A DNA stretch of 58,417 nucleotides from Balneolaceae bacterium. GTDB taxonomy: Bacteria; Bacteroidota; Rhodothermia; Balneolales; Balneolaceae. The notes under the pieces were generated by a model. That model made no database searches. It was not told the DNA's origin and was given only the letters and a program-made list of their open reading frames with translations. The DNA lies in NCBI GenBank assembly GCA_009711805.1, contig VEMX01000082.1, positions 1 to 58,417 on the forward strand, given 5' to 3'. Positions 47,371 to 55,560 of the stretch are shown one piece after another (position 1 is the stretch's first letter; every line of letters begins with the position of its first letter). The position numbers and the translations under genes were made by a program.

Positions 47371-47592
47371 GGTGGCACTTTTGTGTTAATTGGGCATCCG
47401 GTTCGAAATGTAACAGAGTCATGGCATTTATTCTACTGTTATTGTTTTGCAGGCATACCTTGGGCAGGGGATGAAGTGAGATGGCAAAAGTGAATAGTTC
47501 AATTAGGGATGCGTGTTCAGTGACAAGAGTGGACAACTTTTCACTTTTGCCTTCTACCTTTTCACATGTTGGCCATGTTGGTTATTTGGGGA

Positions 47593-49363: not shown

Positions 49364-49393
49364 TGTCCAATTTCCGAAGTTTCAGTCATTATA
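49364..49393 (+). promoter_or_regulatory. Predicted ECF-type promoter upstream of the DoxX cluster
   Basis: TGTCCAATTT ... GTCATTATA, with TGTCCA at 49364 and TCATTATA at 49386. The same two boxes with the same 22-base offset occur at 52420 and 52442 upstream of the YciI-sigma pair. Downstream bases (GTGTAATGCAAACACTCA and ATGTAAAGCAAATACTCA) are also similar. TGTC-type -35 boxes are what I recall for ECF41/ECF42 sigma factors. Confidence 0.6.
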
Positions 49394-49488
49394 AGGGTGT
49401 AATGCAAACACTCACATCAACAAAGACGAAAATGAAAGAGATAAAGGAAAACATTTTTAGTACATCAAATCCGAAAAGGAGGTAAACC

Positions 49489-49859
49489 ATGAATACTTTC
49501 TTATGGGGACTTCAGATCCTTCTTGCCCTGCATACCGCCATAGGTGCAGCGTGGAAGTTTTCCAATTCGGCCGGGGAAAAACCATGCCTTCACTTAAAGC
49601 GATTCCTAACAGAGTTTGGAGGGCGATGAGTATCATTGAATTACTTTGCAGTGTCGCCCTGATCCTCCCTGCAATTAGTATGTCCATGGCTATCCTGGCC
49701 CCTGTAGCGGCAGTATGCATAGCCGCGGAAATGCTGATCTATTGCGTGTTACATATTTCTTCGGGTGACAAGAATTACGGTCCCATGATCTATTGGCTTG
49801 TCGTGGCTGCCATTTGTGCGTTTATTGTCTATGGCAGGTTTGTGCTGAAGCCTTTTTAA
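49489..49859 (+). pseudogene. DoxX-like membrane protein gene with a frameshift at an A-run
   Basis: ATG 49489 has an excellent Shine-Dalgarno (AAAAGGAGG, 49475-49483). It encodes MNTFLWGLQILLALHTAIGA then AWKFSNSAGEK; the frame then runs out at 49626-49628. The continuation TMPSLKAIPNRVWRAMSIIE with three more helices is in the -1 frame. Joined at GGGGAAAAACC (about 49574-49584), the two give a normal DoxX-like protein of about 123 residues with four membrane helices. The cause may be a one-base loss in the A-run, a sequencing error, or -1 ribosomal slippage on AAA. The second frame has its own ATG at 49503 but no ribosome site and a non-DoxX N-terminus. Confidence 0.75.
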
Positions 49860-50120
49860 ATGAAAAAGTTATTGAATTAGAAAAAACCAAAATAGCGTGA
49901 ATTCGAAGCCAAATATTTGATATTTAAGTTAAATTAATGCTCAGCGGGTCTCCCCCGGCTCTTTAGAACCACTTGCCCCACCTCTCTTCGCTATCCGTTT
50001 CGTTAAAACTACGAGGATCAGGAAAGCTACGGAAGACAGGTCAAGGGGGGATTTTTGACCCTTCACTCTAAGGCCGAAGGGATCTCGTTGGGAAACTCAC
50101 TATAAAATAGAAATCACATC

Positions 50121-50531
50121 ATGACAACGACGAAGCGAAATAAAATTATCTACTGGATTGCCACGCTATGGCTGGCATTGGGAATGACATCAACCGGAAT
50201 TGTTCAATTGTTAAGAATGGAAGCAGAAGGAGCCGTGGCGCCACCCGGGGTATACGGTATTGAATATTTGGGCTATCCCGTCTATTTTTTGACTGTACTG
50301 GGTGTTTGGAAATTGTTGGGAGTTGTGGCCGTGCTTGTCCCTAAATTTCCTTTAGTAAAAGAATGGGCATATGCAGGTTTTTTCTTTTTAATGACAGGAG
50401 CGATATTCTCACATATCGCTGTGGCTGATCCTGTGATTGAACTATTACCCTCGTTGCTGCTTCTGACCCTGACTGTGATATCCTGGTATTTCAGGCCTGC
50501 GGATAGAAAAATCGTTTCGGTTCATCAATAA
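50121..50531 (+). CDS. DoxX-like integral membrane protein
   Basis: 136 residues with four hydrophobic helices (about 10-30, 55-75, 80-100, 105-125). IIYWIATLWLALGMTSTGIV and FLTVLGVWKLLGVVAVLVPK fit the DoxX-like family; FFLMTGAIFSHIAVAD carries the conserved GA-x(3)-H. DoxX-like proteins are linked to quinone or thiol redox and stress resistance, but their mechanism is unclear. It follows the frameshifted DoxX gene by 261 bases and precedes a DUF1801 gene by 5. Confidence 0.87.
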   Translation: MTTTKRNKIIYWIATLWLALGMTSTGIVQLLRMEAEGAVAPPGVYGIEYLGYPVYFLTVLGVWKLLGVVAVLVPKFPLVKEWAYAGFFFLMTGAIFSHIAVADPVIELLPSLLLLTLTVISWYFRPADRKIVSVHQ

Positions 50532-50536
50532 ATGAA

Positions 50537-50896
50537 ATGAAAATGTCAAAGCCAGAAACCGTTGATGCTTGCATTGCTAATTCAGCCACTGAAGCTCGTC
50601 CGATCATGAAAGAACTTCATGAAATTATAACATCAACTGTTCCGGAAGCTGAAGAAGGAATAAGCTGGAATGTGCCCATCTACAAACACCACGGGATTCT
50701 TGCCGGATATGATGTAAGCAAACATCATGTCAGTTTTGGTATCGATTCACTGCAGAATGCAGACCGGGAATTACTGGGAGAGCAGGGATATAAAACTGGC
50801 AAGAAAACTATTCAAATTAAGTTTGATCAGGAAATACCGGTAGCAATAATAAAGAAATTATTATTAGAACAAGCAGAGATTAACAAAGCCAAGTGA
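50537..50896 (+). CDS. DUF1801 (YdhG/frataxin-like fold) protein
   Basis: 119 residues; ATG 50537 or 50543. The DUF1801 signs are AHxI-like EARPIMKELHEIITSTVPEA, GISWNVPIYKHHGILAGYDV, and the closing KKTIQIKFDQEIPVAIIKKL. A YdhG homologue has been called an iron chaperone, but the function is not settled. It is 5 bases after the DoxX-like gene and 19 before the YdeI gene, so probably in one operon. Confidence 0.85.
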   Translation: MKMSKPETVDACIANSATEARPIMKELHEIITSTVPEAEEGISWNVPIYKHHGILAGYDVSKHHVSFGIDSLQNADRELLGEQGYKTGKKTIQIKFDQEIPVAIIKKLLLEQAEINKAK

Positions 50897-50915
50897 ACAT
50901 TAAATTATACATAGT

Positions 50916-51494
50916 ATGAATCCCGACGTTGATAAATTTATAGAAAGAGCTTCGAAATGGCAGGATGTAATGGCCCAGTTGAGAAAGATCAGCCTTGACT
51001 GCGGACTTACCGAACGTATAAAGTGGGGAAAACCCTGCTATTCTTTCAAAGGAAGTAATATCGCTATCATTCAGCCTTTTAAAGCGTCCTGCGCCTTTAT
51101 GTTTTTTAAGGGGACTCTATTAAATGATGCTGAGAATATTCTTGAGCCACCTGGAAAAAACTCCAGGGTGGCACGCCGGGCGGTGTTTACTGATGCTCAG
51201 GAAGTAACCGAAGCGCATTCTACGCTAAAGGCTTATATCTATGAAGCCATTGAAGTGGAAAAAGCCGGGCTGGAAGTAAAACTTGAAAAGAATCCCGAGC
51301 CTGTCCCTGAGGAACTTCAAGTTAAATTGGACGAAAACCCAAAGCTTAAGGCAGCCTTTGAGGCGTTAACACCGGGGCGGCAGAGAGGATACATCCTGTA
51401 TTTTTCTGACGCCAAACAATCCAAAACACGGGAGCGAAGAGTTGAGAAATACATTCCGAAAATTCTCGATGGAAAAGGATTTCATGACCGGTAG
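50916..51494 (+). CDS. YdeI/OmdA-like protein (DUF1801 plus YdeI C-terminal domain)
   Basis: 192 residues. The N-terminal DUF1801-like part has ERIKWGKPCYSFKGSNIAII and CAFMFFKGTLLNDAENILEP. The C-terminal helical domain has LKAAFEALTPGRQRGYILYF then SDAKQSKTRERRVEKYIPKI, the YdeI/bacteriocin-protection (OmdA) signature. It is last of the four-gene DoxX cluster. The cellular role is unknown; relatives are induced by stress. Confidence 0.88.
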   Translation: MNPDVDKFIERASKWQDVMAQLRKISLDCGLTERIKWGKPCYSFKGSNIAIIQPFKASCAFMFFKGTLLNDAENILEPPGKNSRVARRAVFTDAQEVTEAHSTLKAYIYEAIEVEKAGLEVKLEKNPEPVPEELQVKLDENPKLKAAFEALTPGRQRGYILYFSDAKQSKTRERRVEKYIPKILDGKGFHDR

Positions 51495-51612
51495 CTTAGC
51501 TGCCAATATGCTGATTTATAGACTCAGCTAAATTAGTCGAGCTCATTTTTTAACTTTTCAAGATGCTTCGAAATAACTTTGGACTTATCTTTTTGGATTT
51601 TTTCCCCAACTT

Positions 51613-52262
51613 CCCCAAAGATCTTTTCAGTCTTTAGCGTAGCGGAGACTGGAAAGTTGATGCTCAGGAAGTCTCTGACTTCCAACCCAAGCAAATCATC
51701 AAATCAGAATCTCGTTGAGCCGGTGCTCTTAAGTCAGCGCTCGCTCTGCATTTGTTTTCGAATAGTAGTTTCGAGACTCGCTGTAAGACTTAAGAGATCT
51801 GAGGATATTTCCTTTTTTACAGGCAAGACCTCCAGGGTTTTTCCAAAGATCTTTTCAGTCTTTAGCGTAGTGGAGACTGGAAAGTTGATGCTCAGGAAGT
51901 CTCCGACTTCCAACCCAAGCAAATCATCAAATCAGAATCTCGTTGAGCCGGGGCTCTTAAGTCAGCGTTCGTTCTGTATTTGTTTTCGAGTAATAGTTTC
52001 GAGACTCGCTGTAAGACTTAAGAGATCTGAGGATATTTCCTTTTTTACAGGCAAGACCTTCAGGGTTTTTCCAAAGATCTTTTCAGTCTTTAGCGTAGCG
52101 GAGACTGGAAAGTTGATGCTCAGGAAGTCTCTGACTTCCAACCCAAGCAAATCATCAAATCAGAATCTCGTTGAGCCGGGGCTCTTAAGTCAGCGTTCGT
52201 TCTGTATTTGTTTTCGAATAATAGTTTCGAGACTCACTGTAAGACTTAAGAGATCTGAGGGG
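51613..52262 (+). repeat. Tandem array: three 194-bp structured elements at 228-bp period
   Basis: Each unit runs from (CC)CCAAAGATCTTTTCAGTC to GACTTAAGAGATCTGAGG(GG); these ends are imperfect inverted repeats. CTTTTCAG recurs at 51623, 51851 and 52079, exactly 228 bp apart. Units contain several hairpins: CAGTCT/AGACTG, GGAAGTC-TCT-GACTTCC, and CTCTTAAGTC/GACTTAAGAG. The linker ends AGACCTCCAGGGTTTTTCC, and the same octamer in inverted form (GGAGGTCT) follows the last unit, giving a longer terminal repeat of about 38 bases. Units differ by only a few percent. Because 228 is divisible by 3, a 241-codon frame runs through, but it is an artefact. Confidence 0.9.
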
Positions 52263-52419
52263 AAAACCCTTGGAGGTCTATACCATAATAATTTAAGTTA
52301 TTAAAACAGAAAAAGCTTTTTTGGACAGCCTGCATAAAGCCAATAGGGTTTGTTATGTTTGACAATCATGATAGCACGTTTCATTTTATTCATACAAATC
52401 AACATAGAGCCTGTTAAAA

Positions 52420-52449
52420 TGTCCAATTTTCAGCGTCTCGATCATTATA
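52420..52449 (+). promoter_or_regulatory. Predicted ECF-type promoter upstream of the YciI-sigma operon
   Basis: TGTCCAATTT at 52420 and TCATTATA at 52442, with the same spacing as the motif at 49364-49393 and about 75% identity over about 50 bases. It lies about 40 bases before the YciI start, consistent with autoregulation by the ECF42-type sigma factor encoded next. Confidence 0.6.
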
Positions 52450-52489
52450 GAGATGTAAAGCAAATACTCAATTTTTAAAAAAAGCGATA

Positions 52490-52849
52490 ATGAAAGAATT
52501 CATGTTATTATTCCGGCAACCAAGCTACGATTATAGTGATGTCTCAAAAGAAGAGATGGCTGCCCTGTCAAAAAAATGGAGCGACTGGTGGAAAGGCATC
52601 GAAAAGCAAGGAAAACTGGCCAGTCGAGGACCGCTGCTCTCGATGGAGGGCAGAGTATTAAAACCCGGCGGGGTAGTTACTGACGGCCCCTTTGTAGAAA
52701 TCAAAGAAAAGCTGGGCAGCTTTATTGTTGTGAAAGCAGAGGACCTGGAAGAAGCAACTACCCTGGCTCATGGATGCCCGGCACTGGATCAAGGCGGGAG
52801 CGTTGAAATCAGGCCGTTCGGAAACCCATGGGCGGGTTCCAAAAAATAG
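52490..52849 (+). CDS. YciI-like (DGPF) protein paired with an ECF sigma factor
   Basis: 119 residues. MKEFMLLFRQPSYDYSDVS at the N-terminus and VVTDGPFVEIKEKLGSFIVV in the middle carry the DGPF motif and conserved His/Asp region of the YCII/DGPF family. Proteins of this type are regularly encoded beside ECF42-group sigma factors. The biochemical role is unknown; some YciI relatives are hydrolases or isomerases of small lactone-like compounds. The downstream sigma gene overlaps its last 22 bases. Confidence 0.9.
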   Translation: MKEFMLLFRQPSYDYSDVSKEEMAALSKKWSDWWKGIEKQGKLASRGPLLSMEGRVLKPGGVVTDGPFVEIKEKLGSFIVVKAEDLEEATTLAHGCPALDQGGSVEIRPFGNPWAGSKK

Positions 52850-54105
52850 CGAGATATAAGGTGGTACAACAGACTATACAGCAGTTATTTCACCAGGAGT
52901 TTTCCAAGATGGTTGCGGTCATCAGTAAACTTTATGGCTTGTCAAATATCCAAATAGTCGAAGATGTTGTAAGTGAAACCTTTCTCCAGGCGGCCGAAGC
53001 ATGGGGGATCGAAGGGTTGCCCGAAAACCCCGCGGCCTGGCTGTATGTGGTAGCCAAACGAAAAGCCCTGTATCACTTTCGGCGAAAGAAAATTTTCGAT
53101 GATAAAATATCTCCTGAGCTGACCTACAGGCATCAACAAAAACAAGGGATACCGGAACCCGACTTCTCGCTGAAGAACATCAAAGACAGCCAGCTGCAAA
53201 TGCTCTTTGCCGTATGCCACCCTGTTATTGCCAGCGAAGCCCAGATTGGCCTGGCCCTGCGTATCCTCTGTGGGTTTGGTATAGATGAAATAACCGAAGC
53301 GTTTTTATCCAATAAAGAAACCATCAACAAAAGACTGTACCGGGCACGGAAAAAACTACGAACCGAGAACATTACCCTGGAAATGCCCCCCGAACATGAA
53401 ATCACAGACCGGCTCGACAATGTGCTACACGTAATCTACCTGCTTTTTAACGAAGGATATTACTCCAAAACCCAGAACCAAATTCTCCAAAAAGACCTGT
53501 GTCTCGAAGCTATGCGGCTTGGACTCTTGCTAACGGAATATGAACAAACCAATCTCCCCAAAACAAACGCCCTTGTGGCTCTTATGTGTTTTCACACTTC
53601 CCGGTTTAATGCAAGAGAAAACCATCCCTCGGGCATGGATGGCCTGGTACTCTACGAAGATCAGGACTATGAATTGTGGGATACGGCCCTCATAAAACAG
53701 GGTATGCATTTTTTGGGTGAATCTGCTCAGGGTGAGGATATCAGCTCGTATCACCTGGAGGCTAAGATTGCCTACTGGCACTGTATTAAAGAGGATACCA
53801 AAGAAAAATGGCAAGACATCCTACACCTATACAACCAGCTCCTTGCAGTGAACTACTCTCCCATCGCAGACCTTAACCGGATATATGCTTTGTATAAGGC
53901 TGAAGGAGTTGAACCTGCCCTGGAGGAAGCCCGGAAACTTAAGCTGGAAGACAATCATTTCTATTTTGTGTTAGTGGGTGAACTTTGCAGGGAAATGGAT
54001 CCCCGGGAAGCAAAACAACATTATCAAAAAGCCTGCTCGCTGGCCAAAACCGAAGCTGAGCGAGAGCTAATCATGGGCAAGATTAATGAATTAGAAAAGT
54101 TGTAA
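52828..54105 (+). CDS. ECF42-type RNA polymerase sigma factor with long C-terminal extension
   Basis: 425 residues; ATG 52828 lies inside the YciI gene, and GTG 52861 is an alternative. Region 2: FSKMVAVISKLYGLSNIQIV then EDVVSETFLQAAEAW, and PAAWLYVVAKRKALYHFRRK. Region 4: RILCGFGIDEITEAFLSNKE then TINKRLYRARKKLR. After about residue 190 an extension of more than 200 residues (NVLHVIYLLFNEGYYS, ALMCFHTSRFNAR, and a TPR-like end) is the DUF6596-type domain that marks ECF42 proteins and regulates activity in place of an anti-sigma factor. Probable targets are its own operon and the DoxX cluster upstream. Confidence 0.9.
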   Translation: MGGFQKIARYKVVQQTIQQLFHQEFSKMVAVISKLYGLSNIQIVEDVVSETFLQAAEAWGIEGLPENPAAWLYVVAKRKALYHFRRKKIFDDKISPELTYRHQQKQGIPEPDFSLKNIKDSQLQMLFAVCHPVIASEAQIGLALRILCGFGIDEITEAFLSNKETINKRLYRARKKLRTENITLEMPPEHEITDRLDNVLHVIYLLFNEGYYSKTQNQILQKDLCLEAMRLGLLLTEYEQTNLPKTNALVALMCFHTSRFNARENHPSGMDGLVLYEDQDYELWDTALIKQGMHFLGESAQGEDISSYHLEAKIAYWHCIKEDTKEKWQDILHLYNQLLAVNYSPIADLNRIYALYKAEGVEPALEEARKLKLEDNHFYFVLVGELCREMDPREAKQHYQKACSLAKTEAERELIMGKINELEKL

Positions 54106-55123: not shown

Positions 55124-55560
55124 AAACAGTCTATTATTCATATTGCCCTGGTAGTTAAAGATTATGACGAAGCAATAGATTTCTACACAAACAAGCTCAA
55201 CTTTACGCTTGTTGAGGACACCTATCACGCTGAGCAGGATAAACGCTGGGTAGTAGTATCTCCCCAAAGATCTTTTCAGTCTTTAGCGTAGCGGAGACTG
55301 GAAAGTTGATGCTCAGGAAGTCTCTGACTTCCAACCCATGCAAATCATCAAATCAGAATCTCGTTGAGCCGGGGCTCTTAAGTCAGCGTTCGTTCTGTAT
55401 TTGTTTTCGAATAGTAGTTTCGAGACTCGCTGTAAGACTTAAGAGATCTGAGGGGATGAAAGCCAAAAATATCAATTTTGTAAGAGATCCAAAGAATGCA
55501 CCATATGGCACGGTTGCTGTTTTTGAAGACCTGTATGGTAATCGTTGGGACCTTGTTTAG
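55120..55560 (+). pseudogene. VOC/glyoxalase-like gene broken by a frameshift and a repeat element
   Basis: The ATG overlaps the HAD stop. Its own frame ends after 12 codons, but one base out, after ATGAAAA, the sequence reads QSIIHIALVVKDYDEAIDFY, TNKLNFTLVEDTYHAEQDKR, then WVVVSP. There the 194-bp element (55262-55455) begins. After it the gene resumes with MKAKNINFVRDPKNAPYGTV then AVFEDLYGNRWDLV and a stop. A normal VOC protein of this type has about 40 more residues between VVVSP and MKAK, so the element replaced about 120 bases rather than simply inserting. The gene cannot make a functional protein. Confidence 0.88.
55262..55455 (+). repeat. 194-bp structured element, single copy inside the VOC gene
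   Basis: From CCCCAAAGATCTTTTCAGTC to GACTTAAGAGATCTGAGGGG; nearly identical to the array units at 51613-52262. It lacks the outer AGACCTCC/GGAGGTCT arms and shows no target duplication. This copy defines the element borders, because VOC coding sequence abuts both ends. Confidence 0.92.

Follow-up and report, generated by a model that had tools for sequence, protein, structure and literature searches.

A probable local ECF42 regulon with two matching promoter sites at a DoxX/DUF1801/OmdA cluster in a Balneolaceae bacterium

Genes and paired promoter-like sites of the locus

We analyzed a 58,417-nucleotide stretch of a Balneolaceae bacterium genome (contig VEMX01000082.1; hereafter the window), in which a cluster of DoxX, DUF1801 and OmdA genes is followed by a YCII gene and an ECF42-type sigma factor gene (Table 1). 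The sequence TGTCCAATTT-N12-TCATTATA occurs on the + strand at 49364–49393 (P1) and 52420–52449 (P2) with no mismatches and the same offset in both, as expected from the original prediction that two upstream regions about 3 kb apart share a motif with a 22-base offset. The further ungapped similarity that had been noted downstream is also present: 39 of 52 bases are identical, and the best 52-base match between the P1 and P2 intergenic regions reaches 40, whereas none of 300 dinucleotide shuffles exceeded 32. Downstream of both cores the regions have TGTAA..GCAAA.ACTCA in common. The useful core of the motif, TGTCCAATTT-N13-CATTAT-N5-TGNA, is wider than the one first described. Transcription is predicted to start near 49399 at P1 and near 52455 at P2.

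Table 1. Features of the locus, in window coordinates
Feature	Position	Strand	Description
P1, putative promoter	49364..49401	+	TGTCCAATTT-N13-CATTAT-N5-TGNA; 5' of the DoxX/DUF1801/OmdA cluster
DoxX1, first DoxX-like gene	49489..49859	+	Frameshifted in this assembly, two frames
DoxX2, DoxX-like membrane protein (DoxX_2)	50121..50531	+	PF13564; first intact DoxX gene
DUF1801 protein	50537..50896	+	PF08818
DUF1801 + OmdA/YdeI protein	50916..51494	+	PF08818, PF13376
228-nt repeat, three head-to-tail copies	51615..52298	+	Between OmdA and P2
P2, putative promoter	52420..52457	+	Motif as P1; 5' of the YCII-sigma pair
YCII protein	52490..52849	+	PF03795, E 7.5e-14, contains DGPF; directly 5' of the sigma gene
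ECF42-type sigma factor	52828..54105	+	sigma2, sigma4, DUF6596, TPR-like C-terminus

The sites lie where they had been placed, one before the DoxX cluster and the other before the YciI-sigma pair, with the qualification that the DoxX gene directly after P1 is frameshifted. The gene order after P1 is DoxX-DoxX-DUF1801-OmdA(YdeI). The DoxX1 frameshift is located near a GGGGAAAAA run at about 49574–49581 and reflects either a sequencing error or real decay; a strong ribosome-binding sequence, AAAAGGAGG, precedes the DoxX1 ATG at 49489, and intact DoxX1 orthologues are present in two relatives (G002 and G071).

A fourth copy of the 228-nt repeat, at 55264–55491, breaks into the reading frame of a VOC (glyoxalase-like) protein near 55264. 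The repeat has 43 full or partial matches genome-wide, including another array on contig C18, and gives a good RNA fold (z −2.9). A hindrance of read-through from OmdA to P2 by the repeats is a guess, since a search for a terminator-like site between OmdA and P2 found none. An intergenic inverted repeat with 26-nt arms (47474–47560) adjoins a VOC gene.

Alignment with relatives suggests that the sigma factor starts at a GTG codon at 52861. In Pfam searches Sigma70_r2 scored above cut-off (2.3e-7) and DUF6596 matched strongly (4.8e-30), followed by about 240 residues of paired helices with pLDDT mostly above 90; sigma4 is weak in this protein (0.005, below cut-off) and is detected in 33 of the 34 aligned members. 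The structure model (mean pLDDT 87, 34 sequences) contains sigma2 and sigma4 together with an extended solenoid built of helix pairs; among solved structures the model comes closest to TPR proteins and ECF sigma factors, with E-values that are weak throughout (0.005 and up). TPR sequence models match at most two members of the alignment; the TPR label of the C-terminal extension rests on the modelled fold, not on TPR sequence models. A Pfam scan of the neighbouring genes for anti-sigma models found none. A TPR-type C-terminal extension of about 200 residues, a YCII-related neighbour and the absence of a nearby anti-sigma gene are features of the ECF42 group (PMC8999054, PMC6180224). The promoter form also resembles that of the group, with TGTC at −35 in the Sinorhizobium meliloti register and a −10 of CATTAT rather than CGTCAT. 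The window sigma thus has the marks of ECF42, as had been proposed, and is assigned by these features: domains, C-terminal extension, YCII neighbour and promoter form.

Conservation, specificity and co-occurrence of the motif

The two promoter-like sites match each other, are conserved and specific, and co-occur with the sigma gene. Genome-wide scoring was by pattern matching. TGTCCA-N16-TCATTATA has exactly two perfect matches, P1 and P2, in the bacterium's own genome (4,076,035 bases, 99 contigs); with one or two mismatches allowed, matches are near background (42 in total versus 35 for the reversed control). One such site with a single mismatch, C5:65081, was rejected because it lies inside a long reading frame on the opposite strand. 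A longer form, TGTCCAATTT-N14-RTNAT-N5-TGNA, gave four matches in 394 genomes of the phylum, all at ECF42 loci, and none in the control. The scatter over many unrelated sites that would have spoken against a dedicated promoter is therefore not seen.

Five relatives carry an orthologous sigma factor, 72–76% identical to that of the window. In all five the DoxX/DUF1801/OmdA genes adjoin the sigma orthologue and the clusters begin with the motif, so that it is conserved upstream of the orthologous clusters. The arrangement is P1-DoxX1-DoxX2-OmdA-YCII-sigma in G002, P1-DoxX2-DUF1801-OmdA-YCII-sigma in G034 and G070, and P1-DoxX2-DUF1801-OmdA-P2-YCII-sigma in G067; G071 has site-DoxX1-DUF1801 and, about 5 kb further, site-OmdA-YCII-sigma. 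Two sites are thus also present in G067 and G071. In the other three, a remnant of P2 survives in the OmdA–YCII interval, with one change in TGTCC (G034), a changed −10 (G002) or the −10 half only (G070); in the window P2 is intact, with the three repeats between OmdA and P2. The remnants therefore suggest that two promoters are ancestral in the locus, and P2 looks to have decayed in these three relatives, in which P1 could drive all the genes.

Relatives of the DoxX2/OmdA genes that are located away from an ECF42 gene (G061, G003, G104, G065, G018, G075, G033 and G005) have no motif 5' of them; in G061 the genes before them encode an ArsR regulator and an AHSA1 protein. The DoxX/OmdA genes as such therefore do not bring the motif with them. 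At L261 (G071:C13:145000-155000) a further ECF42 gene is followed directly by a DoxX gene and two YCII genes, without the motif, so that DoxX beside ECF42 either arose more than once or is older than the clade of the window sigma. In Tamlana agarivorans (L176:10507-11243), a DoxX gene with 65% and a DUF1801 gene with 58% identity to their window counterparts are found at a distance of about 3 kb from an ECF42 gene; an AHSA1-like gene precedes them, and the motif is missing.

The co-occurrence of motif and sigma gene that had been named as a check was examined in 92 genomes of the family. TGTCC-N17-TNRTHAT-N5-TGNA was found in 20 of the 24 with the sigma gene and in 7 of the 68 without it (Fisher p=8e-11), and the reversed pattern showed no link with the sigma gene in the same genomes (p=0.77). 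The pattern had been fixed after 13 of the 24 sigma-bearing genomes had been viewed, hence a test on the held-out genomes, where the motif occurs in 9 of 11 with the sigma gene versus the same 7 of 68 without (p=2.5e-6). All nine sigma-bearing genera (9/9) have at least one genome with the motif. In genomes that lack the sigma gene, most core-pattern matches fall within reading frames or antisense to them and were judged to be chance hits. Further probable targets within the family are a DUF6265 protein (G023:C1:154601; look-alike G033:C1:1124334) and a small SnoaL-like protein (G033:C1:472145; named by eye), whose genes each begin 23–41 bases after an intergenic site.

The broader pattern TGTC[CG][ACG]-N18-[GA]T[ACT]AT gave 50 sites 5' of 108 ECF42 genes and none in the reversed control, the 50 including near-identical congeners and one locus in two versions (L034/L260) and so not being 50 independent events. 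The 108 genes come from genomes of the family and from named genomes, mostly Bacteroidota with a few from other phyla. The spacing, set here by the pattern itself, equals that of two mapped S. meliloti ECF42-dependent promoters. A site of the same spacing, TGTCC-N20-T[TCA]AT, precedes YCII-sigma operons across Bacteroidota; those in L032, L033 and L056 were found in wider upstream stretches. The motif is not universal for ECF42, since G010, G062 and G081 have the sigma gene and no match, and it was not found at many more distant ECF42 loci in other families. Among plasmid-borne ECF42 loci (Rhizobium, Aulosira and Streptomyces) a TGTCG..CGTC site is present in Rhizobium only, three loci being too few to use.

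The sigma clade and known ECF42 systems

A quick tree placed the window sigma in a clade of 12 (support 100) with factors of Chitinophaga, Pedobacter, Flavitalea, Flavihumibacter and Flavobacterium, apart from most other ECF42 factors of its family, which suggests lateral transfer. TGTCCAATTT is common to the clade members, and nearly all have a CAT[TC]AT −10 (C24-A25; L119 reads CCTTAT); TGTCCAAT with [CT]GT[CT]AT is the usual form in the neighbouring groups. Several columns of the sigma alignment, residues 81, 84 and 85 among them, vary in step with A25 against G25, but clade and trait coincide, and no specificity residue is claimed. The YCII-ECF42 operons of Chitinophaga, Pedobacter, Flavihumibacter and Flavobacterium (L119, L120, L122-L124) encode sigma factors 61–67% identical to that of the window and share its promoter subtype, but have a CMD (carboxymuconolactone decarboxylase family) gene in the interval from site to YCII instead of DoxX/DUF1801/OmdA. 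Accessory genes therefore change while promoter and sigma stay. We tentatively propose, as a possibility somewhat short of an even one, an ECF42 sub-lineage in Bacteroidota with a promoter code of its own (TGTCCAATTT, A for G in the −10) that changed with the sigma, passed from one family to another with sigma and promoter as a unit, and picked up different accessory genes: CMD in Chitinophaga-like hosts, and DoxX/DUF1801/OmdA here, which elsewhere (G061) stand behind an ArsR-type regulator.

Among the closest described parallels is RpoE10 of S. meliloti (PMC6180224), which likewise has a YCII gene before the sigma gene, a long C-terminal extension and a small regulon of little-known proteins. 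Its targets carry TGTCGG-N17-CGTCAT and TGTCGG-N17-CGTCCT with mapped starts, and the window sites share the register and spacing of these two promoters, with TGTC at −35 and a CGTC-like −10. The systems differ in sequence (TGTCGG/CGTCAT versus TGTCCAATTT/CATTAT) and in targets, which are glyoxalase-like and ligand-binding proteins in S. meliloti and DoxX/DUF1801/OmdA proteins here. Sven_0747, Sven_4377 and Sven_7131 of Streptomyces venezuelae and ECF-10 of Pseudomonas putida (PMC8999054), from other phyla than the window's, also combine a TPR-type C-terminal extension with a YCII-related neighbour, and regulation through the extension has been proposed for them.

Alternative readings and the proposed regulon

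The P1/P2 similarity could reflect recently copied DNA, by promoter duplication or a mobile repeat, with no shared regulator. A family of 228-nt repeats does lie between the two regions, and P1 and P2 share bases beyond the core; both sites, however, are outside the repeat, and their spacers have diverged while −35, −10 and spacing were kept. P1 is closer to the P1 of G002, and P2 to the P2 of G067, than P1 is to P2, so both appear old, and the same site precedes YCII-sigma operons in other families. Such conservation already contradicts copying, which we regard as very unlikely. An operator for a repressor or activator in place of a sigma promoter seems more improbable still. It would account for the AATTT that close relatives additionally conserve next to TGTCC, beyond a usual −35 hexamer, but not for two blocks in fixed register, with a variable spacer, a short distance 5' of start codons; the blocks match the ECF42 −35 and −10 with mapped starts in S. 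meliloti, and the site tracks a sigma gene, with no repressor gene in the cluster.

We give rather more room, while still holding it improbable, to recognition by another ECF factor, by the second ECF42 factor of the genome (C5:57606, 36% identical to the window sigma) or by both ECF42 factors. ECF factors of S. meliloti are reported to overlap (PMC6180224), and a related site, TGTCCCC..TTATTATA, precedes the YCII gene that belongs to the C5 factor. That second locus reads TGTCCCC..TTATTAT, and the second ECF42 locus of G034 reads TGTCCAATTT..TTGTTAT. P1 and P2, in contrast, carry the promoter subtype of the window sigma's clade and not that of C5, and in the five relatives the cluster adjoins the orthologue of the window sigma.

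The locus is very probably a local ECF42 regulon with two promoters, P1 and P2, read by the window sigma. The earlier proposal that this factor reads both its own promoter and the neighbouring cluster gains support from specificity, conservation and co-occurrence, and likeness in form and spacing to the mapped S. meliloti promoters supports the assignment; we infer, on strong support, that the window sigma recognizes P1 and P2 and that both are transcribed. RNA polymerase with the window sigma would read TGTCC (−35) and CATTAT (−10) at both. P1 would drive DoxX1-DoxX2-DUF1801-OmdA and probably, if there is no interruption, all genes as far as sigma, and P2 would drive YCII-sigma, with positive autoregulation and activation of the accessory genes as the outcome. 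Autoregulation through P2 is proposed and is not certain, because overexpressed RpoE10 did not raise its own operon in S. meliloti (PMC6180224). As proposed for ECF42 (PMC8999054), the TPR-like C-terminal extension, possibly together with YCII, probably controls sigma activity in place of a separate anti-sigma factor. By analogy with P. putida ECF-10 (PMC8999054), and judging by their families, the accessory proteins probably act against chemical or oxidative stress.

In the literature searched, no link of ECF42 with DoxX or DUF1801 was found; the kind of regulator was already known there, and the promoter subtype and target set were not found described. DoxX-like, DUF1801 and OmdA/YdeI proteins are widespread and poorly understood, and a likely regulator and promoter offer a route to when they are made. 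The motif is specific enough to find regulon members from sequence alone. Together, the promoter subtype, its presence twice in the locus and the decay of copies in relatives offer a natural test case, if a small one, for the gain and loss of targets by an ECF regulon.
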